A stretch of 64,000 nt of DNA from NCBI RefSeq assembly GCF_006152065.1, contig NZ_VDFW01000034.1:1-64000 (forward strand), in the 5' to 3' direction. Under the pieces are notes generated by a model. The model was not told the origin of the DNA and did not search any database. It saw only the letters and a program-made list of their open reading frames with translations. The position numbers and the translations under genes are program-made. This DNA is from Amycolatopsis alkalitolerans. Its GTDB lineage: Bacteria; Actinomycetota; Actinomycetes; Mycobacteriales; Pseudonocardiaceae. Below, one piece after another: positions 8,231 to 34,552 of the stretch (within the stretch, counting starts at the first letter, position 1; every line of letters starts with the position of its first letter).

Positions 8231-10309
8231 GTGGTTGACGCAGCAGTTCGCACGAACCGGCCCGGCCTGCTGGACGGGCTCGATCCCGAGCAACGAGCCG
8301 CCGCGGTGGCGCCGCGGGGGCCGGTGTGCGTGCTCGCCGGCGCGGGCACGGGGAAGACGCGGACGATCACGCACCGTATCGCGCACCTGATCAGGTCGGG
8401 TCACGTGGCGCCCGGACAGGTCCTCGCCGTCACGTTCACCACGCGCGCGGCCGGTGAGATGCGCACGCGGTTGCGCGCGCTGGGGGTGGAGGGCGCGCAG
8501 GCGCTCACCTTCCACGCGGCGGCGAGGCGGCAGCTGCGGTATTTCTGGCCACGTGTGATCGGGGACAGGCCGTGGGATCTGCTCGAGGGCAAGCTGCGGC
8601 TGGTCGGCCAGGCCGCGAACAAGGTGGGTCTGGGCACCGAAGCGGAGATCCTGCGGGATCTGGCGAGCGAGATCGAATGGGCGAAGGCGTCGCTGATCAG
8701 TCCCGACGACTATCCGGCCACGGCCGCGCGCGTCCAGCGGGACAGCCCGGCCGCGCCGGAAAAGGTCGCCGAGGTCTACCGCGCGTACGAGAAGCTGAAG
8801 AACTCCGCCCAGGTCGTCGACTTCGACGATCTGCTGCTGCACACCACGGCGGCCCTCGAGGAGCACGGCGAGGTCGCGCGTGAGTTCCGCGAGCGGTACC
8901 GGTGCTTCATCGTCGACGAGTACCAGGACGTCACCCCGTTGCAGCAGCGCCTGCTCGACGCGTGGCTGGGCGGCCGCGACGATCTGACCGTCGTCGGTGA
9001 CGCGAACCAGACGATCTACTCGTTCGGCGGCGCGTCGCCGCGCCCGCTGCTCGAGTTCACCCGCCGCTTCCCCGAGGCGACCGTGGTGCGGCTGGAGCGT
9101 GACTACCGGTCCACGCCGCAGGTGGTCGAGCTGGCGAACAAGGTGATCGGCGCGGCGCGCAACCGGCCCACCGGGTCCAGGCTGCGGCTCGTCGCGCAGC
9201 GGCCGGCCGGCGCGGAGCCGCGGTTCGCCGAGTTCGAGGACGAGCCGACGGAGGCCGCCGCGGTCGCGGCCCGCATTCGCGCGTTGCTGGACGGCGGGGT
9301 CGCGGCGAGCGAGATCGCGATCCTGTACCGGATCAACGCGCAGTCCGAGGTTTACGAGCAGGCGCTCGCCGAGGCCGGTGTTCCGTACCTCGTGCGCGGC
9401 GGGGAGCGGTTCTTCGACCGCCGCGAGATCCGGCAGGCCATGGTCGCATTGCGTACCGCAGCGGCGGACCCGCCTCCGACGGAGCTGGTGACGGCGGTGC
9501 GTTCAGTGCTGTCCAGGGCCGGCCTGACCGAGCAGCCGCCGTCCGGTGGGGCGGCGAAGGAGCGCTGGGACGCGCTGCTGTCCCTGGTCGAAGTGGCCGA
9601 GGAGCTCGCGGCGACGGTCGAGGGCGCGGATCTGCCGCGGTATGTGGCCGAGCTCGAGCAGCGGGCGGCCGCCCAGCACCCGCCGACGGTCGAAGGCGTC
9701 ACGCTGGCGTCACTGCACGCGGCGAAAGGCCTGGAGTGGGAGGCGGTGTTCCTGGTCGGGCTCGCCGAGGGCACCATGCCGATCCTGCACGCGGACGGCG
9801 ACGGCGACGCGATCGAAGAGGAGCGCCGCCTGTTCTACGTGGGCGTCACCCGGGCACGCGAGCATCTGTGGTTGTCGTGGTCGCTCTCGCGTCACGCGGG
9901 CGGCAAGCGGCATCGGCGGCGCAGCCGGTTCATGTACGGCTTGCTGCCCGAACACCATCCGGCCGCGCGCGTGCCGCGGTCGCAGTCCGGAAGGAGCGGG
10001 CCCAAGCCGCGATGCCGGGTGTGCGGCGGCCCCCTGCTGGAGACGATGGAGATCAAACTGGGGCGCTGCGGCCGCTGCCCGTCCAATGTGGATGAAGAGC
10101 TCCTGGCGCGGTTGAAGGACTGGCGTATCACCCGGGCGAAGGAGCTGAAGGTGCCGCCGTTCGTCGTGTTCACCGACGCCACGCTCATCGCGATCGCCGA
10201 ACAGCAGCCCGCCGATCGCCGCAGCCTGGTGTCGATTTCCGGCATCGGCCCGAACAAGGCCGAGCGCTTCGGCGCCGACGTGCTGGCCGTCGTCAACGGG
10301 GAGCGCTGA
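8231..10309 (+). CDS. uvrD2: ATP-dependent DNA helicase, UvrD2 type with HRDC domain
   Basis: A superfamily I 3'-5' DNA helicase of 692 residues, expected to act in DNA repair and replication. Motif I is AGAGTGKTRT near residue 36, motif II VDEYQD, motif III GDANQTIYSFGGA, motif V VTLASLHAAKGLEWE and motif VI FYVGVTRAREHL. After the helicase core come two Cys pairs (CRVCGG and CGRC, about residues 595-620), a likely zinc site, then an HRDC domain (about 630-690). That architecture and the adjacent whiB7 match mycobacterial UvrD2. GTG 8231 is the start; the frame upstream overlaps the divergent gene. Confidence 0.95.
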   Translation: MVDAAVRTNRPGLLDGLDPEQRAAAVAPRGPVCVLAGAGTGKTRTITHRIAHLIRSGHVAPGQVLAVTFTTRAAGEMRTRLRALGVEGAQALTFHAAARRQLRYFWPRVIGDRPWDLLEGKLRLVGQAANKVGLGTEAEILRDLASEIEWAKASLISPDDYPATAARVQRDSPAAPEKVAEVYRAYEKLKNSAQVVDFDDLLLHTTAALEEHGEVAREFRERYRCFIVDEYQDVTPLQQRLLDAWLGGRDDLTVVGDANQTIYSFGGASPRPLLEFTRRFPEATVVRLERDYRSTPQVVELANKVIGAARNRPTGSRLRLVAQRPAGAEPRFAEFEDEPTEAAAVAARIRALLDGGVAASEIAILYRINAQSEVYEQALAEAGVPYLVRGGERFFDRREIRQAMVALRTAAADPPPTELVTAVRSVLSRAGLTEQPPSGGAAKERWDALLSLVEVAEELAATVEGADLPRYVAELEQRAAAQHPPTVEGVTLASLHAAKGLEWEAVFLVGLAEGTMPILHADGDGDAIEEERRLFYVGVTRAREHLWLSWSLSRHAGGKRHRRRSRFMYGLLPEHHPAARVPRSQSGRSGPKPRCRVCGGPLLETMEIKLGRCGRCPSNVDEELLARLKDWRITRAKELKVPPFVVFTDATLIAIAEQQPADRRSLVSISGIGPNKAERFGADVLAVVNGER

Positions 10310-10422: not shown

Positions 10423-10461
10423 AAAAATAGGTTGCCGCGACGGAGTCCGGGGCAATAGCCT
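10423..10461 (+). promoter_or_regulatory. putative WhiB7-type whiB7 promoter
   Basis: An A/T-rich AAAAATA (10423-10429) sits two bases upstream of a -35-like TTGCCG (10432-10437). After an 18-base spacer comes a -10-like TAGCCT (10456-10461). An AT-rich patch abutting the -35 is the known feature of WhiB7-activated promoters, where the WhiB7 AT-hook contacts the DNA. The layout fits autoregulation and would give a leader of about 445 bases before whiB7. Confidence 0.6.
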
Positions 10462-10547
10462 GCAGGGGCCGGGTGGAAGGCCACCCGTGGGGGTTTACGC
10501 CCGTCGCGAAGGCGATGCGCGTTGGACAGCGAAGGGAGGCGTCCGGA

Positions 10548-10793
10548 ATGAAGATCACCAATCTGATCGGTATCCCTGGCACCACGCTGTCCTGCGCCGC
10601 TGACGCTGGCGTTTTCGTCGGCCACGGCATCGGTGTGCCGGCCGGGGCGCCGGCGCGCCTTCGCCACCTTGCCGACCGTGACCGTGTCTTCGGTACCGAG
10701 GTCGTGCTGGCCGATGCCGCGCCGACCGGGATGCCGACGAACAAGCAGCCGCAGACGTATGTTCCGCACCCTCCGCTGGAGCGAAGTCCCTGA
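10548..10793 (+). CDS. 81-residue leader ORF upstream of whiB7
   Basis: ATG 10548 follows a good ribosome site (GGGAGG, 8 bases away) and encodes 81 residues starting MKITNLIGIPGTTLSCAADA. No domain is recognised; the product is rich in Ala, Gly and Pro. The gene lies wholly inside the whiB7 leader. Its stop codon (10791-10793) sits in the left arm of a hairpin, and the whiB7 attenuator terminator follows 22 bases later. Its translation therefore probably senses ribosome inhibition and sets whiB7 read-through. It could also have a function of its own. Confidence 0.7.
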   Translation: MKITNLIGIPGTTLSCAADAGVFVGHGIGVPAGAPARLRHLADRDRVFGTEVVLADAAPTGMPTNKQPQTYVPHPPLERSP

Positions 10794-10807
10794 CACCCAT
10801 TCAGGGA
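10787..10807 (+). promoter_or_regulatory. hairpin overlapping the leader-ORF stop
   Basis: TCCCTGA (10787-10793) pairs with TCAGGGA (10801-10807). The TGA of the left arm is the stop codon of the 81-codon leader ORF. A ribosome terminating there would cover or open this stem, while a stalled or absent ribosome would leave it free, a typical geometry for translation-dependent attenuation. Confidence 0.5.
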
Positions 10808-10814
10808 ACAGGCT

Positions 10815-10860
10815 CACGAAGGCCGCGGAACCGTACATCGGATCCGCGGCCTTCGTGTTT
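10815..10860 (+). terminator. attenuator terminator before whiB7
   Basis: A perfect 15-bp stem, CACGAAGGCCGCGGA (10815-10829) with its complement (10843-10857), is followed by TTTG. It lies 53 bases before the whiB7 start and after the leader ORF, so it should end most leader transcripts unless antitermination occurs. Confidence 0.8.
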
Positions 10861-10912
10861 GTGCAGTACCCGTCAAAACCGAAAAACCGTTACTACACAA
10901 AGGAGAACGGGA

Positions 10913-11305
10913 ATGTCATCGGCAATCGCCTTCGCGTCAGAGGGGGCGTTACCCGCCGAGTTCGCCGACCCCGGCACCCTGGGAATCGGCGACCTGCTCG
11001 ACGCGGCTGTCTCGCCCGAGCTGGACCTGCCTTGCCGGTCCGGCGACGCCGACCTGTGGTTCGCGGAGGCTCCCGCGGACCTCGAGCGGGCCAAGCGCCT
11101 GTGTGGTGACTGCCCGATCAGGCAGTCCTGCCTGGCCGGTGCGCTCGCACGGCGGGAGCCGTGGGGCGTCTGGGGCGGCGAGATCTTCGAGCGCGGCGCC
11201 GTGGTCGCGCGAAAGCGGCCCCGGGGACGCCCGCGGAAGCACCCGGTAGCGGAACAAACCCTCGAGCAGCGGGACTCGGGCGAGCAGCGGAGCGCTGCCG
11301 CATGA
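10913..11305 (+). CDS. whiB7: WhiB-family iron-sulfur regulator WhiB7
   Basis: A 130-residue WhiB protein. Four iron-sulfur ligands are Cys41, Cys64, Cys67 and Cys73 (CGDCPIRQSC), followed by the GVWGG turn at 85-89. The C-terminal AT-hook KRPRGRPRK (about 101-109) distinguishes WhiB7 from other WhiB proteins. WhiB7 binds the primary sigma factor and activates intrinsic resistance genes when ribosomes are inhibited. ATG 10913 follows AAGGAG. The neighbour uvrD2 and the attenuated leader match the locus in mycobacteria and streptomycetes. Confidence 0.96.
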   Translation: MSSAIAFASEGALPAEFADPGTLGIGDLLDAAVSPELDLPCRSGDADLWFAEAPADLERAKRLCGDCPIRQSCLAGALARREPWGVWGGEIFERGAVVARKRPRGRPRKHPVAEQTLEQRDSGEQRSAAA

Positions 11306-34175: not shown

Positions 34176-34544
34176 GGGGGTGAACGGTTTCGACTTTGGA
34201 CGTTGAGTCAAGGGAAGCGTGCCGGTGCAGGCGAGAGACCACCGTAAGCGTCATCGCACTCAAATAAGCGCCAAGACGAATAGTCAGCGCGACTACGCCC
34301 TCGCCGCCTGAGCGAGTGCGTGTCTGTCGGCCCGGGAGCGCCTCCGTCCCGGTAGCCGGCATCAGCTAGGAGGCTCACCTTCTGGACCCGGCCGCGGGGT
34401 CCGGAAGGAACACCCACAGCGGCTGGGCCCGTCACACCGGCTTGTTCGCGAGACCGGTGGGGCCGAGTAGAGGCACAGCGAACTGCGCACGGAGAAGCCT
34501 TGGTGAGGCGCCAGAGGACCCGGGTTCAATTCCCGGCACCTCCA
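34176..34544 (+). ncRNA. ssrA: transfer-messenger RNA
   Basis: tmRNA frees stalled ribosomes and tags the nascent chains. The 5' GGGGGTG pairs with CACCTCC near the 3' end to form the tRNA-like acceptor stem, and GGTTCAATTCC is the T-arm. The tag frame, from the resume codon GCC 34270 to the TGA 34309-34311, reads AKTNSQRDYALAA, ending in the Ala-Leu-Ala-Ala signal for proteases. The length is 369 bases. CCA is not encoded. SmpB is encoded at 27.6 kb. Confidence 0.95.
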
Positions 34545-34552
34545 CTCGGCCG

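Follow-up and report, generated by a model that had tools for sequence, protein, structure and literature searches.

A putative ribosome-sensing attenuator with an antiterminator strand inside the leader reading frame of whiB7 in Amycolatopsis alkalitolerans

The stretch of DNA analysed here (the window) comprises 64,000 nucleotides of an Amycolatopsis alkalitolerans contig and carries whiB7 behind a leader with its own upstream open reading frame (uORF). The whiB7 product matches the Pfam family Whib (E 4.2e-15), whereas the Pfam AT_hook model scores 15.2 bits on it, under the cut-off of 17.4; both the EPWGVWGG turn and the PRGRPRK stretch are invariant in a 17-sequence family alignment. Seven WhiB-type matches occur in the genome, of which only the one at 10913-11305 is strong (4e-84; next 3.6e-9). 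In the portions of the literature available, whiB7 is presented as a main hub of the intrinsic resistance of actinomycetes to ribosome-targeting drugs (PMC11550727, PMC10727445), and promoter autoactivation together with uORF attenuation of whiB7 is described in mycobacteria and Streptomyces (PMC10727445, PMC11550727, PMC7157823). Directly upstream of whiB7 and on the same strand lies a gene for a UvrD-type helicase with an HRDC domain (8237-10309, forward strand); by eye, a similar helicase end precedes whiB7 in L131, L135 and L144, which are loci of Mycobacterium and Rhodococcus. A tmRNA gene is found at 34176-34547 (Rfam RF00023, 134 bits). The features of the whiB7 region are as follows.

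10423-10428, forward strand: AT patch AAAAAT resembling a WhiB7/WblC box, exactly 3 nt before the -35 element (read from the sequence)
10432-10437, forward strand: -35 element TTGCCG (sequence; promoter scan of relatives)
10456-10461, forward strand: -10 element TAGCCT after an 18-nt spacer (sequence; promoter scan of relatives)
10524-10531, forward strand: GGACAGCG, 5' strand of a likely helix enclosing the uORF Shine-Dalgarno sequence and start codon (predicted fold; 15 early-motif loci)
10532-10539, forward strand: uORF Shine-Dalgarno sequence AAGGGAGG (read from the sequence)
10548-10793, forward strand: leader uORF of 81 codons, ATG at 10548, stop TGA at 10791-10793 (conserved in relatives)
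10576-10593, forward strand: conserved nucleic-acid motif CTGGCACCACGCTGTCCT, consensus AGGSNACCRGTSTGTCC; 10585-10592 predicted to pair with 10524-10531
10757-10767, forward strand: antiterminator 5' strand GUAUGUUCCGC, inside the uORF (predicted fold; swap tests)
10787-10807, forward strand: stop-codon hairpin TCCCTGA-CACCCAT-TCAGGGA, 7 bp, at the antiterminator tip (predicted fold)
10815-10857, forward strand: Rho-independent terminator hairpin, 15 bp, with tail TTTGTGCAG from 10858
10825-10836, forward strand: antiterminator 3' strand GCGGAACCGUAC, overlapping the terminator 5' arm and loop (predicted fold)
10899-10906, forward strand: whiB7 Shine-Dalgarno sequence AAAGGAGA (read from the sequence)
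10913-11305, forward strand: whiB7, with WhiB domain, EPWGVWGG turn and AT-hook-like RGRPRK

Of the 249 family genomes, 247 had a whiB7 match at E<=1e-15, as did 247 of the 296 class genomes. The comparison used 218 whiB7 loci (70 from the genus and family, 80 from named genomes, these being the best 80 of 588, and 68 from the class), drawn from the best whiB7 matches listed, a sample in which weaker-matching families are missing and some genomes occur twice. By our own annotation rule, a uORF ends just 5' of the terminator in 208 of the 218; the ten loci outside the rule are L117, L136, L139, L145, L157, L158, L160, L180, L182 and L196, and in L117 a leader is nevertheless visible by eye. Four uORFs are shorter than 40 codons, three of them (L087, L134, L142) having no convincing start and one (L144, 37 codons) having one; all four were dropped from the promoter, recoding, stop-hairpin, swap and fold counts. 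Duplicates were dropped from the same counts except that of promoters, where they were kept, and uORFs below 45 codons were left out of the start-region, motif discovery and motif scan sets. A MAFFT alignment of 22 class-level sequences contained register shifts and was excluded from the counts.

The original prediction had described an AT-rich patch, a -35, an 18-base spacing, a -10, an 81-codon frame, a hairpin holding its TGA, a 15-bp stem and whiB7, and read this anatomy accurately. AAAAAT agrees at five of six positions with the published box GAAAWY, which sits 3 nt 5' of the -35 element in published promoters, as far as the accessible part of that source goes (PMC7157823), and transcription is predicted to start near 10468. 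Of 204 loci, 180 have a WhiB7-box-like sequence with TANNNT 16-20 nt beyond it, compared with 0.1% of shuffles. An E. coli-type sigma-70 scan reported no promoter here. The leader (10468-10870) has a folding z of -5.18 relative to its shuffles, and its longest perfect stem measures 15 bp, compared with a maximum of 10 in 200 base shuffles. In Rfam the leader had no match at the gathering score, the best permissive matches having E values of at least 0.49. The terminator (-37.1 kcal/mol, z -7.9) is formed by the arms CACGAAGGCCGCGGA (10815-10829) and TCCGCGGCCTTCGTG (10843-10857) in 15 perfect pairs, and is followed by a short, T-poor tail; a generic terminator scan, which requires loops of 3-8 and no fewer than 5 T within 8 bases, did not return this hairpin. 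Its core is CCGCGG in 178 annotated loci and CCACGG in 30, mostly from Mycobacterium and family f2. Tails (10858-10866 in the window) range within the genus and family from TTTTTGTG to the T-poor TTTGTGCAG, and CTGTTTCGG is seen in other genera; the stem is nearly constant despite this variation. In the stop-codon hairpin the arms TCCCTGA (10787-10793) and TCAGGGA (10801-10807) form 7 bp, with the TGA at 10791-10793 in the 5' arm, and a stop codon in an arm of a stem of at least 6 bp occurs in 61% of 193 loci versus 19% of shuffles.

The Shine-Dalgarno sequence and open frame of the uORF are conserved among the annotated whiB7 loci, as is the start region among relatives. A Shine-Dalgarno match of at least 6 nt was seen at 191 of 208 uORF starts, a count biased by the starts having been picked partly by this feature. 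When the uORF peptide was searched against 19 genomes of the genus, the matching locus also carried whiB7 in 17, with E values of 4.7e-22 for the best relative and 0.006-0.04 for weaker ones; in the other two genomes, G006 and G007, the uORF was located starting from whiB7 (L056, L063). Median uORF length is 78 codons for the genus (15 loci, the window's own excluded), 81.5 for the other loci of the family (54), 84 for the annotated named loci (71), 65 for family f2 (14 of 15 loci), 90 for f18 (11 loci), 108 for f20 (11 loci; range 90-119), which is probably Streptomyces, and 73 for the 31 remaining loci. Named Mycobacterium uORFs span 47-71 codons (10 of 11 loci annotated). The claim that the frame is much longer than the mycobacterial one is thus borne out against those loci, yet 81 codons is an ordinary length and the norm of the family, not an exceptional one.

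The one element absent from the original prediction is an antiterminator that, as modelled, begins within the uORF. In the predicted fold, a helix between 10757-10767 and 10825-10836 is capped by the stop hairpin; folded before the terminator 3' arm is made, this structure reaches -37.9 kcal/mol (z -3.70), compared with -37.1 for the terminator. GTTCCGC lies exactly 30 nt 5' of the stop in all 16 genus loci. In a swap test, the last 45 nt of each uORF were paired with the cognate terminator 5' arm and with arms from other lineages, the main set containing one locus for each of 25 arm types. The cognate arm had an advantage of -3.92 kcal/mol (permutation sd 0.55; 0 of 10,000 permutations), which was similarly seen outside the family (-4.04, n=24, 0 of 10,000) and was weaker inside it (-1.81, n=17, P 0.0005); the control uORF segments at -90 to -45 and -135 to -90 gave only -0.29 and -0.28 (P about 0.25). 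The cognate arm was better than the median of the swapped arms in 150 of 180 loci and not in the other 30, and for three of the 25 representatives (L068, L097, L131) own-arm pairing was worse than their average. Before the 3' arm is made, the probability that the 5' arm core pairs with the uORF exceeds 0.5 in 189 of 193 loci, while 63% of 325 codon-shuffled controls, derived from every third locus, pair likewise. A null model of synonymous recoding was exceeded on average by 151 of 194 loci and at p<=0.05 by only 56, a modest effect. In the outer helix, 97.6% pairing is kept across 18 near relatives with zero two-sided changes, because both strands are nearly invariant there. An antiterminator made of overlapping uORF and terminator sequence is thereby found by prediction and by comparison.

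The C-terminal motifs ERSP*, WSPPV* and PWSDPA* recur within lineages and coincide with the antiterminator strand, and the f20 loci have a second antiterminator helix, in which CCCTGGA pairs with TCCAGGG in L217. Within its final 45 nt, the uORF carries the exact complement CCGTGG in 9 of the 30 loci with a CCACGG core and in 12 of the 178 others; with 9 of 30 only, the idea that mycobacterial uORFs generally track the change in terminator core was rejected. Micromonosporaceae uORFs (L162, L168, L185 and others) finish on GVPPRG(R/K)PV, an ending that hardly varies and whose DNA includes the antiterminator strand CCTCGAGG in the loci displayed. This end, reminiscent as it is of proline-type arrest sequences, is probably RNA-driven. 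Once the 3' arm is present, the terminator is favoured at equilibrium, with a mean antiterminator probability of 0.04. With a ribosome parked on the stop (+/-15 nt blocked), the antiterminator falls from 0.79 to 0.66, and from 0.78 to 0.76 in the window, so that a simple fold model with a single ribosome at the stop does not reproduce the toggle. Because the terminator wins at equilibrium and blocking of the stop barely lowers the antiterminator, the switch must, on this model, operate kinetically or through more than one ribosome.

A second conserved segment emerged from motif discovery restricted to the uORF minus its start and end. The motif AGGSNACCRGTSTGTCC had a log-likelihood of 436, compared with 228 for the best motif of codon-shuffled uORFs, and at a score of at least 11 bits it was present in 74 of 149 nonredundant uORFs (carriers include L222, L125 and L238) versus 0.8 after codon shuffling; the matrix had been built on the very uORFs it later scored, the control being codon shuffling and not independent data. 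At the same threshold it was found at 1 whiB7 coding start. Of the uORF hits, 63 lie in one frame and 11 in the others. Selecting the motif by its peptide pattern instead picked 60 of the 149 uORFs, and in these its codons are nearly fixed: Leu is encoded by CTG at all 39 of its occurrences (background 46%), Ser by TCC in 42 of 45 (37%) and the third-position Gly by GGT in 16 of 18 (24%). In these sequences, from related lineages that are not fully independent, the constraint on AGGSNACCRGTSTGTCC acts at the nucleic-acid level. An internal start codon was judged unlikely because the NTG of the motif is CTG in 39 of the 60 peptide-pattern instances. In Amycolatopsis and near genera the motif likely pairs, as folded, with GGACAGCG upstream of the Shine-Dalgarno sequence and encloses the uORF start: a swap of motif and 5' UTR over all 74 motif loci gave P 0.0024, and the early-motif set (n=15) gave P 0.036, with a pairing of 0.96 versus 0.72 for a shuffled 5' UTR. 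In the 59 late-motif loci, swap tests identified no partner in the 5' UTR (P 0.30), the upstream uORF (0.96), the downstream 70 nt (0.81) or the antiterminator/terminator region (0.71), and pairing of the late-lying motif with these leader parts was rejected. It is conceivable, if on balance doubtful, that AGGSNACCRGTSTGTCC is a second RNA element of whiB7 leaders that tunes the timing of transcription or translation, in Amycolatopsis and near genera through the start-enclosing hairpin (10524-10531/10585-10592).

Three clades close to the window, of 7, 9 and 8 loci, gave median uORF dN/dS values of 0.73, 0.71 and 1.08, compared with 0.23, 0.15 and 0.21 for whiB7 at the same loci, and substitutions in the uORF are far more even across the three codon positions. 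The peptide belongs to no NCBIfam family and to no Pfam family above cut-off. Those uORF segments that were examined at the nucleotide level, the inner motif and the antiterminator strand, are conserved as nucleotides across the loci compared, and the conserved content of the uORF looks like RNA rather than peptide; short peptide stretches could still be under constraint. As to whether relatives keep codons or only the stop position, a comparison that had been proposed for Pseudonocardiaceae, the stop position is constrained, together with segments constrained as RNA. The suggestion that the peptide may have its own role finds no support in these substitution ratios.

Among other explanations, the uORF could be a specific sensor, in which the ribosome stalls at one site owing to an arrest sequence in the nascent peptide or to a run of sensing codons, as in trp- or erm-type leaders. 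Alanine makes up 33% of the uORF minus its last 15 codons in 24 loci of f2 and Mycobacterium (among them L131, L132 and L198-L201), where base composition predicts 13%, an excess above that of the four other groups compared and one that fits the induction by alanine starvation cited in the accessible parts of PMC10727445 and PMC13236596; the recurrence of the C-terminal motifs within lineages would fit as well. Yet alanine reaches only 16.5% versus 12.5% expected in the genus (16 loci), and no run of residues or codons was seen by eye in the window peptide. Neither does dN/dS, with medians near 1, reveal in the three clades the purifying selection on the peptide expected of an arrest sequence, and the C-terminal motifs overlap the antiterminator strand. 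Moreover, the known system responds to several drug classes and to starvation, according to the part of PMC12121999 at hand. Since alanine enrichment is marked in f2 and Mycobacterium and slight in the window genus, lineages may differ in what they sense; as a general feature, alanine sensing was rejected, the excess being weaker in f20 (18.7% versus 11.2% expected), Micromonosporaceae (16.8% versus 11.8%) and the window genus. We therefore regard a specific sensor as unlikely, albeit the most plausible of the alternatives.

A less probable account places the main control in Rho or coupling (polarity), loss of uORF translation altering the access of Rho while the hairpin serves as a secondary terminator. 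The T-poor tail would be in keeping with this, as intrinsic termination alone may be weak. On the other hand, untranslated RNA would favour Rho and lower whiB7, opposite to the direction published in the excerpts of PMC11550727 and PMC10727445, and conservation extends to both the perfect stem and the antiterminator that matches it; we hold this account to be improbable. That the peptide of 81 residues functions as a small protein, as its length, its strong Shine-Dalgarno sequence and an identity of up to 67% inside the genus might suggest, is the least credible reading of all and was rejected on the dN/dS of the uORF; two of the conserved segments, moreover, have nearly fixed synonymous codons or pair as RNA.

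The leader instead belongs to the known whiB7/wblC kind of uORF attenuator. The wblC uORF attenuator of Streptomyces coelicolor was reportedly described by Lee, Lee and Roe in 2022 (Mol Microbiol 117:179), and the mycobacterial whiB7 leader is said to be the subject of Burian and Thompson 2018. As represented in excerpts of citing papers (PMC11550727, PMC10727445, PMC12121999, PMC7157823), the S. coelicolor attenuator likewise has a WblC box promoter, a uORF, a Rho-independent terminator and an antiterminator from overlapping uORF and terminator sequence; translation inhibitors and starvation induce that system, as they would be expected to induce the present one. The window is distinguished from it by a uORF of 81 codons ending in ERSP* and by GUUCCGC as antiterminator strand, whereas uORFs of f20, which is probably Streptomyces, have 90-119 codons and the second antiterminator helix. 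In mycobacteria, the accessible text of Dinan 2014 (PMC4128351) likewise gives a primary start about 350 nt upstream, a uORF about 10 nt after a Shine-Dalgarno sequence and a stem-loop, there with a T-rich tail. That leader differs in its 47-71 codons (10 annotated of 11 named loci), in the 33% alanine it shares with f2, and in a terminator core of CCACGG, not CCGCGG, with the complement CCGTGG in 9 of 30 such loci. Attenuators of the trp/ilv type would be alike in that competing antiterminator and terminator structures are governed by ribosome position, whereas the window has a long uORF with no visible run of sensing codons and controls a transcription factor instead of a biosynthesis operon. 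Attenuation of whiB7/wblC that depends on a uORF, with an antiterminator overlapping uORF and terminator, is already in print in the parts of PMC10727445, PMC11550727 and PMC7157823 that were available. We found no mention of the class-wide antiterminator coupling or of the inner motif in the parts of the literature surveyed, in which Lee 2022, Burian 2018 and Poulton 2024 are represented by papers citing them. The original prediction that this leader works as in mycobacteria and Streptomyces stands, by anatomy and comparison, for autoactivation and uORF attenuation, though not for an exceptional length or a role of the peptide.

It is therefore very probable, in our judgement, that the region 10423-11305 constitutes a ribosome-sensing transcription attenuator of whiB7. 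Its anatomy, the conservation of its parts, the cognate pairing of the antiterminator and the near-neutrality of the peptide are each apparent from the sequence comparison. From a WhiB7-responsive promoter, a leader of about 445 nt would be transcribed and its uORF, we infer, translated. Ribosomes reaching the TGA would disrupt the stop-codon hairpin and the surrounding antiterminator; the 15-bp terminator would then form, and RNA polymerase would halt about 50 nt before whiB7. A stall anywhere 5' of roughly the last 10-15 codons would leave the 3' end of the uORF free, so that GUAUGUUCCGC (10757-10767) could pair with 10825-10836, the stop hairpin stacked at the tip. Antitermination must, if the fold model holds, be kinetic: the antiterminator would form ahead of synthesis of the terminator 3' arm, letting the polymerase proceed into whiB7, and induction would be reinforced as WhiB7 raised the activity of its own promoter. 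The start-enclosing hairpin could, as a guess, hold RNA polymerase in a pause that lasts until a first ribosome has loaded; if that is true, ribosome position would truly decide the switch.

The uORF would accordingly be a long detector of elongation trouble, largely neutral as to sequence, and not the source of a useful peptide. The leader conserves the promoter box, the Shine-Dalgarno sequence, the antiterminator strand, the stop hairpin and the terminator, and does not conserve most of the peptide, a pattern that favours a general detector of elongation and predicts why many unrelated drugs can induce it. According to the available part of a 2025 paper (PMC12121999), ribosome stalling within the whiB7 uORF is as yet untested. 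The coordinates given here, together with the conserved inner motif, would make such stalling directly testable in a soil organism.
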